In this document: positions 3,240 to 25,103 of the stretch, piece by piece
Numbering within the stretch: position 1 is the stretch's first letter
How the letters are laid out: every line of letters starts with the position of its first letter
Origin: Rhodothermales bacterium
GTDB taxonomy: Bacteria; Bacteroidota; Rhodothermia; Rhodothermales; VXPQ01
Reading direction: 5' to 3'
Length of the DNA stretch: 52,867 nucleotides
Assembly (NCBI GenBank): GCA_022825385.1
Contig: JAJDWX010000048.1
Span: 1 to 52,867 of the forward strand
Translations under genes and position numbers: made by a program
Notes under the pieces: model-generated
Told to the model about the DNA's origin: nothing
Database searches by the model: none
Seen by the model: the letters and a program-made list of their open reading frames with translations, nothing else

Positions 3240-3280
3240 AAGGATACGCTGATTAAATCCGCGAAGATCAGAGTATCCTT
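3240..3280. repeat. minimal derivative of the MITE-like element
   Basis: A 41-bp near-palindrome in the gap between the TauE/SafE and HtrA genes. The first 27 bases match the left end of the 21289-21549 element with few changes. The last 14 match its right end (ATCAGAGTATCCTT). It looks like an internal-deletion copy with the two ends joined. As RNA it would form a hairpin and could act as a weak processing or termination signal between two genes transcribed in the same direction. Confidence 0.7.
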
Positions 3281-20354: not shown

Positions 20355-21236
20355 TCAGGCTTGCGCCAACCCGTTTTCAACAAGATACGCGAAACTTTGC
20401 GCGGCGGCCTCGAAGATGTCCGTCTCGCAATCGTCCATTTCCACGATCATCCATTCCGTGTGTCCGCGTCCCGCCGCTGCAATGGCGGGAAAATCCTGCA
20501 GGCCGCTTCCCGCCGCCACCATGGGACCTTCGGTCGAGAGCGTCTCCGCATCCTTGATGTGCAACAAGGGAGCGCGGGCGCCCCAGTCCCCCACCACTTT
20601 CGCCGGGTCGAGTCCCGCCACGTTGGCCCAGTACGTATCTATTTCGAAGAAAATGCCAGGCTCGACGAGGGGCATGATTTCATAGTACGGAAGCGCGCCG
20701 TCCGCATTTGGCTCGAATTCCCACCAGTGATTATGCAGCCCGAATTGCAGGCCATTCGCCTGGCAGAAAGCGTAGGCCTCGTTGTAGACGTCGGCCAGTT
20801 CCCTGATGCCGTCCATCGTCTGGTAGCGTTCGTCCTCGGGCCATCCATGCCACACCATGCGGTCGCAGTCGTAGGCCTCGGCGGCTTCCAGCATGGCAGC
20901 CCGGTGCGCTCCTTCGGGAATCTCTGCATGCACCGAGAACACGCTGAGCCCCGCATCCTTGAGGAGATTGCTCGCCTGCGTCAGGGTCATGCCCTCTGGC
21001 CAGAACGCTGTTTCCACGGCGGTATACCCCATTTCGGCGACGCGGGCGAGCGCGGCGGCGGCATCCGCCTCGATGGCGTCCCGAACCGTGTACAACTGGA
21101 ATCCGATCCTGGGAAGCGGCGGTTCGGGCAGGGCGGGTTCCACTTGCGGCTCGGAAGTTTCCCGGCAGCCGCCCACCACGGCGCCGGCGGCGGCTACGCC
21201 CAGCGTTTTCAGGAAAGTTCGGCGCGTATTCCCCAT
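20355..21236 (-). CDS. sugar phosphate isomerase/epimerase-type TIM barrel, Tat lipoprotein
   Basis: 293 residues from the ATG at 21236. The signal MGNTRRTFLKTLGVAAAG plus the lipobox GGC combines twin-arginine and lipoprotein features, so it is probably folded before Tat export and then lipid-anchored. The body is an AP-endonuclease-2-like TIM barrel (IGFQLYTVRDAI; metal ligands expected around HNHWWEFEP and FEIDTYW). Such proteins act on sugars or inositols, but the substrate is unknown. The frame is open further upstream only because it runs into the MITE-like element. Confidence 0.85.
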   Translation of the reverse strand: MGNTRRTFLKTLGVAAAGAVVGGCRETSEPQVEPALPEPPLPRIGFQLYTVRDAIEADAAAALARVAEMGYTAVETAFWPEGMTLTQASNLLKDAGLSVFSVHAEIPEGAHRAAMLEAAEAYDCDRMVWHGWPEDERYQTMDGIRELADVYNEAYAFCQANGLQFGLHNHWWEFEPNADGALPYYEIMPLVEPGIFFEIDTYWANVAGLDPAKVVGDWGARAPLLHIKDAETLSTEGPMVAAGSGLQDFPAIAAAGRGHTEWMIVEMDDCETDIFEAAAQSFAYLVENGLAQA

Positions 21237-21288
21237 GGATTTTTCCGTTCTGGTCGATAATACGTCGGCGTGTTTCGGACATCCTCTC

Positions 21289-21549
21289 TTAAGGATACTC
21301 TGATTAAGTCCACGAAGCTCAGAGGCTGCGAGGGGTGCGCTGGCAAGGAATGACGAAGCAGCATGGCAGGCCCCATGTAATGAGGAATGACACAGCCAGC
21401 GTGCCCATCGCAGCCTCCCGAAGGGCGCGTCACGTCCGCACCGCACTGAATCTACATATTTTCTGCTGATTTCAACAATGCAAGCATGACGGCCTGCACC
21501 GGCAAACGTGACGCGCTGAGCGAAGTGGTTTTGATCAGAGTATCCTTAA
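21289..21549. mobile_element. MITE-like element, complete copy (261 bp)
   Basis: The terminal inverted repeats start TTAAGGATACTCTGAT (21289 on) and end ATCAGAGTATCCTTAA (to 21549), extending with mismatches to about 31 bases. Taking AGGATAC...GTATCCT as the ends leaves TA on both sides, as in Tc1/mariner/IS630-type insertions. Inside are two further inverted pairs: 21325-21344 with 21395-21414 (17 of 20) and 21425-21435 with 21506-21516 (11 of 11). The whole folds as a three-arm structure. No protein-coding frame is supported. Related copies are at 1-141 and 3240-3280. Confidence 0.8.
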
Positions 21550-21693
21550 ATAAACGAAAAAACCGGCTGCATTGACAATGAAATGCCCCGTTTTCGGGCG
21601 CTAATTCGGGCAAACCTTAATTTTTTAAGTCCAGATTTTCGCGCCTTACTTTTTTAGGTTGTGATTTTTGGAGAGGGATTTTCGGCGCTTTCC
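21550..21693. other. AT-rich intergenic spacer
   Basis: Between the MITE-like element and the HIRAN remnant. It contains several T runs and a short GCCCCG/CGGGCGC pairing, but I see no gene and no clear promoter. Confidence 0.4.
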
Positions 21694-21790
21694 CTACCCC
21701 GCCGCCTCGACCAATGGAAGGAAATCTTCGTCCGCCATCGGTTCGTGCTCGCCGAGATTGCCGCGCAGTTCGATGAGGCAGCCTGCGGGC
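21694..21790 (-). pseudogene. 3' remnant of a HIRAN-domain gene
   Basis: On the minus strand this encodes LIELRGNLGEHEPMADEDF plus LPLVEAAG and a stop. This is almost identical to the C-terminus of the HIRAN protein encoded at 24250-25005, with matching DNA. Everything upstream of these about 28 codons is gone. The remnant and the intact gene lie in opposite orientation on either side of rarA and the HipA-like gene. Confidence 0.85.
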
Positions 21791-24253: not shown

Positions 24254-25005
24254 ACGAAAGGACCCTCTTTCTTGCCTGGCAGGACAAGGGCCGTCAATGG
24301 TTTCCGATCGGTCGGCTGGATGTGGGCCGCAACCTGTCGGGGTACCGTTTTCGTTATACCGGCGGCGCCCTGCGAGCGCAGAAGGAAGCCTATTTCCGCA
24401 CCCTTCCGGAATTTCCAAAGATGGAGAAGGAGTATTTCTCGCCAGAATTGTTTTACCTGTTTCAAAACCGGGTTATGAAGCCAAACCGTCCGGATTTTCG
24501 CGAACACGTCAAGCGCTTGGGGCTTTCTGGGGATACCAACCCTGATCCTTTTCAGATTTTGTCGGTTAGCGGTGGTCAGCGAGCCACGGATTTTTACGAG
24601 GTTTTTCCGAAAATCGAGACGAATGCCGCTGGCGATTTTACCACCCGTTTTTTTCTTCACGGCTGGCGGTACGCCAATGAAGCCGCCCAAAACCGCCTTG
24701 CCCAATTGGAGGCCGGGGAAGAACTGTACGTGGCTCTGGAACTGAACAATCCGGTGACCAGGGTGGCCGTGCAGCTCCAGACAACAGATTATCACATGAT
24801 TGGTTGGGCTCCGCGCTATCTTGTGTCGGACCTTGCGAAGTCAATCGCTGGTTCGCCCGGCGAGTATGAGGCGAAGGTTGTTCGGCTTAATCCTCCGCCA
24901 GCCCCCATGAAGCAGCGGGTGCTCATCGAACTGCGCGGCAATCTCGGCGAACACGAACCAATGATCGGCGAAGATTTCCTTCCGCTGGTCGAGGCGGCGG
25001 GGTAG
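24250..25005 (+). CDS. HIRAN-domain protein paired with HipA-like kinase
   Basis: 251 residues. The C-terminal half (about 140-230: FFLHGWRYANEAAQNRL, LELNNPVTRVAVQL, YHMIGWAPRYLVSDL) fits a HIRAN domain, known to bind 3' DNA ends in HLTF/Rad5-type proteins. The N-terminal half (about 1-60, FLAWQDKGRQWFPIGRL) recalls the N-terminal domain of HipA proteins. HipA function may therefore be split across two chains. Translational coupling by ATGA supports a complex. A second decayed copy of this gene's end is at 21694-21790. Confidence 0.75.
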   Translation: MNERTLFLAWQDKGRQWFPIGRLDVGRNLSGYRFRYTGGALRAQKEAYFRTLPEFPKMEKEYFSPELFYLFQNRVMKPNRPDFREHVKRLGLSGDTNPDPFQILSVSGGQRATDFYEVFPKIETNAAGDFTTRFFLHGWRYANEAAQNRLAQLEAGEELYVALELNNPVTRVAVQLQTTDYHMIGWAPRYLVSDLAKSIAGSPGEYEAKVVRLNPPPAPMKQRVLIELRGNLGEHEPMIGEDFLPLVEAAG

Positions 25006-25103
25006 GCAGGTCAAGCCTCTTAAATCTAACCCCTTTCTGATGGGCTGGCATAGCGGACTTTCATTACTGTACTACAACACACGGAGAAAAGCACGAAGTC
25101 AAC

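Follow-up and report, generated by a model that had tools for sequence, protein, structure and literature searches.

The repeat described here is very probably a non-autonomous MITE of IS5 type, a 253-bp element moved in trans by an IS5-family transposase that has the same ends. It lies on contig JAJDWX010000048.1 of a Rhodothermales bacterium (GenBank assembly GCA_022825385.1), the whole 52,867 nucleotides of which are called the window below. The element has the features of a MITE, as follows. It is multicopy and gene-less, it ends in 15-bp terminal inverted repeats, and its interior consists of hairpin arms. The family is a new one of a known kind, the IS5-type MITEs, and its three-arm fold is unusually well preserved for a kind of element that is otherwise well understood.

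The history that we propose is as follows. An IS5-family transposase acting in trans would have inserted the element into AT-rich, mostly intergenic 4-bp targets, which were duplicated in the process. The parent IS would since have decayed, leaving fragments in one sister species, and full copies would later have been shortened by internal deletion, giving the 37-bp form in the window and forms of 60–190 bp elsewhere.

Anatomy and Copy Number

The features of the window are listed in Table 1. The initial annotation had recognized a complete copy at 21289–21549, which is real and consists of the 253-bp element with a TTAA on each side; the shared flank, which had been read as TA, is 4 bp. In arm 1, an internal loop has two GGAATGAC motifs opposite each other.

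Table 1. Coordinates of the element, its parts and its short forms in the window.
Feature	Position	Strand	Basis or remark
Full-length MITE, GGATAC...GTATCC, 253 bp	21293–21545	+	Family alignment; at least 40 genomic copies
Target duplication, left, TTAA (4 bp)	21289–21292	.	4-bp length known from empty sites
Target duplication, right, TTAA (4 bp)	21546–21549	.	4-bp length known from empty sites
Terminal inverted repeat, left, GGATACTCTGATTAA	21293–21307	+	
Terminal inverted repeat, right, minus-strand reading GGATACTCTGATCAA	21531–21545	-	
Internal arm 1, helix with inner CATGG/CCATG hairpin	21322–21417	+	Consensus fold, compensatory changes
Internal arm 2, GGGCGCGTCACGT/ACGTGACGCGCT helix with long variable loop	21424–21517	+	Consensus fold
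Internal-deletion derivative, 37 bp	3242–3278	+	Left end apparently joined to right end at TCAGAG direct repeat
Right half of a further copy, cut off where the contig begins	1–137	+	Assembly artefact, no biological half copy

The proposal of a multicopy family is borne out by the genome as a whole. The window's own genome (3.02 Mb in 49 contigs) contains at least 40 long copies plus fragments, with identities of 85–100%, a lower bound since 40 copies were scored out of 135 candidates. The end motif is matched 169 times in this assembly, compared with a single match for a reversed-pattern control. The copies are many and their positions variable, which is not the pattern of a sequence tied to the same genes. 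The family is present in every one of the six genomes of the genus and in none of 34 other genomes of the order; the core motif was absent from the viral contigs searched.

Target Sites and Duplications

Copies of G000, G001, G002, G003, and G005 were compared with the chromosome of G004 (2.4 of 2.8 Mb). Where both flanks could be aligned, the G004 site was empty in 24 cases and occupied in 10. An overlap of exactly 4 bp between the flanks is seen at ten empty sites, with TGTA, TGCA, TATG, and TTAA as the clean cases. The duplications at empty sites are often non-palindromic, as in TATG, TTGT, and TGTA. For example, a filled site reads ...TACTATG, element, TATGGTC..., and the corresponding empty site reads ...TACTATGGTC.... 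The site of the window copy is itself empty in G001 (L291), in which the flanks 20360–21289 and 21549–21777 adjoin and the sequence reads CTCTATGAATAAACG. The comparison of empty sites, which had been suggested as a check, gives clean cases in sister genomes, that of the window copy among them.

A perfect 4-bp duplication borders 18 of the 61 full copies in G004, compared with 5.4 in shuffles (maximum 11), and duplications of 3 bp and 5 bp were not in excess over shuffles among the same copies. The target duplication of IS5 has been reported as YTAR (PMC10359306). The duplications found here (TTAA, TATA, TGTA, TATG, TTGT) are of the same length, and the targets are AT-rich but looser in sequence than YTAR, a point against an IS5 mover.

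The initial annotation had taken the element for an IS630/mariner-type MITE, with duplication of TA. TTAA, which flanks many copies, does include a TA, and the base adjoining GGATAC is an A in 85% of copies. However, several duplications seen at empty sites (TATG, TTGT, TGTA) lack a central TA, and other copies have TACA, TCAA, CTAA, or GTAA in identical form on both sides. We consider an IS630/mariner origin highly improbable.

The Probable Transposase

A search for DDE_Tnp_1 transposases identified three genes in G004, all damaged, that have GGATACTCTGATCAA at the right end; one of these remnants, of 666 bp, has both ends. The remnants are of the IS5 family, matching the NCBIfam model transpos_IS5_4, and comparison with plasmid IS5 transposases gave thousands of matches, at less than 60% identity. 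A protein search with an IS5 transposase returned the three G004 remnants along with weak fragments in G001 and G002; no IS5 transposase was found in G000, G003, or G005. A complete autonomous partner was not found within the genus, which counts against an IS5 helper. The search for a transposase with matching ends, which the initial annotation had advised, was rewarded in part, with decayed IS5 copies in G004 and no IS5 transposase of this type in the window's own assembly.

Relatives also occur outside the genus. An intact transposase of 329 aa in another family of the order is flanked by GGATGTTCTGATTTA and GGAATGTCTGATCAA, which are similar to the ends of the MITE. In Sulfitobacter, an IS5 relative has the ends GGAAAGTCTGA and GGAACGTCTGA (GGAA..TCTGA), with the 4-bp duplication TCAA on both sides. 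Outside the ends, no obvious common sequence was found between the interior of the MITE and the IS, so that an origin of the MITE from this IS by deletion is no more than a possibility.

A search of six genomes of the genus for DDE_3 transposases, the IS630/mariner type, gave no match. Because the IS5 remnants have the same ends as the MITE, because the ends of an intact relative are similar, and because DDE_3 was not found in these genomes, the IS630 prediction is rejected in favor of a helper of IS5 type, in agreement with the 4-bp duplications. A mover of another sort, the RAYT (Y1) transposase of REP/BIME-like repeats, might be considered on the grounds that the repeats are short, palindromic, and intergenic, with stable hairpins. 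This explanation is barely conceivable, given that the target duplications are exactly 4 bp long and that the terminal inverted repeats are held in common with an element that encodes a DDE transposase; we know of no REP element that produces such target duplications.

The family appears to be inactive in the window's genome at present. Since the parent IS is decayed in the sister species and the window's assembly gave no match to it, the family in that assembly is probably no longer mobile, or else relies on a helper that was not assembled.

A separate observation concerns G049, a genome of the sister family f15, which has 33 matches to the IS5 transposase, most of them broken. There may have been a recent burst of the same IS group there, followed by decay.

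Shortened Copies and Contig Edges

The initial annotation had counted at least three forms of the element in the window. Two of these stand, the full copy and one deletion derivative; the third, a "half copy" at 1–141, is a contig edge. The window corresponds to the whole of contig C2, whose first base falls within a copy. In contigs C1, C2, C3, C6, C17, C21, and C23, the sequence sets in about 140 bp before the element's end, and C3, C41, and C47 terminate likewise, inside copies. Since seven contigs start, and others end, at the same place in the element, the half copy is an assembly break, as expected for a short-read assembly broken by a repeat.

The end-to-end deletion form, first described as 41 bp long at 3240–3280, is real at a length of 37 bp and is a single copy. 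Its flanks, GTAA and TTTA, form no matching duplication. It is the sole match to its pattern in the assembly, and the idea that it represents an amplified subfamily was dropped for that reason. At the counterpart of this site in G004, both flanks align and the element is absent. The 37-bp form is best read as the product of an internal deletion.

Forms of many lengths that arose by internal deletion do occur in the genus. Copies of several reduced lengths are found in G004, that is, 37, 57–64, 75–104, and 119–189 bp, in addition to those of about 254 bp. One site shared by two genomes has a copy of 257 bp in G002 and of 167 bp in G004, with 98.8% identity across the retained part. From this difference in length at a single site, copies appear to shrink in place.

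The Three-Arm Fold

The three-arm structure proposed for the full copy is real, being more stable than chance would give and displaying covariation. The predicted RNA fold of the window copy has a free energy of -123.9 kcal/mol (z = -8.6), and the DNA fold has z = -6.7; none of 200 shuffles was as stable. A consensus fold was derived from an alignment of 50 copies from six genomes. Among its 62 predicted pairs, 21 have changes on both sides, and 98.5% of cells are paired; neither shuffles nor slides come near this covariation. In arm 2, for example, alignment pair 150–240 is GC in 28 copies and UA in 21. The terminal repeats covary too, at pairs 5–269 and 7–267.

The two kinds of mispair, G-U and A-C, were counted in 169 copies, G-U on one strand being equivalent to A-C on the other. 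Mispair variants present in at least 17 copies comprise 11 G-U and no A-C, and those in 5–16 copies comprise nine G-U and four A-C. Among rarer variants, the numbers are 18 G-U and 17 A-C for those in 2–4 copies and 12 G-U and 19 A-C for those in one copy. As the G-U bias is confined to common variants, the fold shows up among old variants that have been inherited widely but not among recent variants specific to a site. This suggests that the structure is kept in the propagating lineages and that copies drift after insertion, with no guarding at each site. The fold may have been kept since it is helpful, or harmless, to propagation.

A different origin of the compensatory changes is mutational, that is, template switching between the arms of the imperfect palindrome, by which one arm is copied to the other. 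Twelve types of compensatory double change are each private to a single copy, and these suggest arm-to-arm correction, although close paralogues outside the sample could make some of the double changes look private. The covariation of the terminal repeats, which act as DNA, is also in accord with template switching. The G-U-only bias of the common mispairs is left unexplained by it, and we regard template switching as a possible but doubtful source of the covariation. Template switching bears on the fold alone and can be reconciled with the explanation of the element as an IS5-type MITE. A further proposal is that propagation requires the three-arm fold itself, formed by RNA or by one of the two DNA strands when single, so that there is structural selection during transposition, with some fixed copies in host use under strong constraint; this is rather unlikely.

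Shared Copies and Possible Host Use

Eleven copies at sites shared by G002 and G004 were compared, with one region that is near-identical between both genomes left out. Seven of the eleven are 98.8–100% identical, although their flanks are at about 93% (range 87–94%); among ordinary windows of 254 bp, as few as 9.6% reach that identity. One further copy is 98.2% identical, and the remaining three have diverged more than the sequence around them. The sample is small and partly motif-chosen, and the result is reported as an observation. Two causes of the conservation were considered and set aside. Gene conversion from paralogues does not readily explain it, as in most of these pairs the closest relative is the orthologue; for several of them the nearest paralogue is only 0.92–0.98 identical. 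Selection by the exact 24-base search pattern or the end motif does bias which copies entered the sample, but in any one pair it can affect no more than a part of a single sequence.

Of 101 copies in G004, one falls within a predicted gene (none of 101 in another count, with a predicted coding share of 81%). Copies lie close to the 3′ ends of genes, and in tandem gene pairs 39 of 54 point in the direction opposite to the genes. The genes come from a simple home-made caller that under-calls, and the one result relied on here is that copies are nearly absent from genes.

The strong covariation, the conserved shared copies, and the position and orientation of copies relative to genes would all suit a structured RNA used by the host, such as a regulator or a 3′ end or stability element, that was spread by transposition and is now selected at each site. 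The initial annotation had suggested that the folded RNA might affect neighbouring transcripts. Several results speak against such a role, as follows. Variants found in 1–4 copies comprise 30 G-U and 36 A-C, that is, private variants have no preference for the fold, and this weakens the case for a general RNA function at the individual sites. The majority of tested positions differ between the sister species, some copies at shared sites have been cut down to 63–167 bp, and three of the eleven shared copies have diverged beyond their flanks. An Rfam search of the window gave no match. A host-used RNA is accordingly an unlikely explanation.

As a separate matter, several kb at 1095000–1099000 of G004 (L044, L101) are about 99% identical between G002 and G004. 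Across all aligned parts of these genomes the difference is about 7.6%, which suggests a recent exchange between the two species.

Relation to Known Elements

MITEs of IS5 type are known from other bacteria, namely the Neisseria ATR with ISNme1 and BrickBuilt and MITE464 of Porphyromonas gingivalis with ISPg elements (PMC4596501). The Rhodothermales family is like these in being non-coding and multicopy and in having terminal repeats that match an IS5-family element. It differs from them in its GGATACTCTGATTAA ends, its uniform 4-bp duplication, and its covarying three-arm fold, and in that its parent IS is decayed whereas theirs is intact. With IS5 itself (IS5 group), it has in common the transposase family of the remnants, a 4-bp target duplication, and ends starting with GG; unlike IS5, the element is non-coding.

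No earlier description of this family, or of such repeats in Rhodothermales, was found in the literature searched. Intergenic hairpin-forming repeats are represented elsewhere by the ERIC and RU elements and the Correia elements, of which the Correia elements duplicate TA. To our knowledge, no sequence relation of these elements to the Rhodothermales family is to be expected. The likeness to enterobacterial ERIC/RU (for RU, see PMC2759123) and Neisseria Correia elements is that all are intergenic, hairpin-forming, and MITE-like, with lengths of about 100–260 bp.

Within its genus the family is abundant, and short-read assemblies break at it, with contigs ending inside copies. The two complete sister genomes, with chromosomes OX638293 and OX638295, allow a natural test of what conserves folded MITEs, selection or arm-to-arm correction, and of how MITE families outlast their transposase.

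Adjacent Sequences and a Subfamily

A second short repeat of about 50 bp, around AATTTTTTAAGTCCAGATTTTCGCGCCTTAC, lies a short way to the right of the element (21605–21662). It has more than 20 matching places in G000 and G001 and none in the other genomes. Further to the right, the segment 21777–24922, which includes a rarA/MgsA-like gene, is inverted relative to G001. The ends of the inversion carry a related 85-bp sequence in opposite orientation, at 21693–21777 and 24922–25006. Finally, eight copies in G002 (L296–L303) are 97–99% identical to one G004 copy; they constitute a subfamily that was amplified recently and has a loop sequence of its own.
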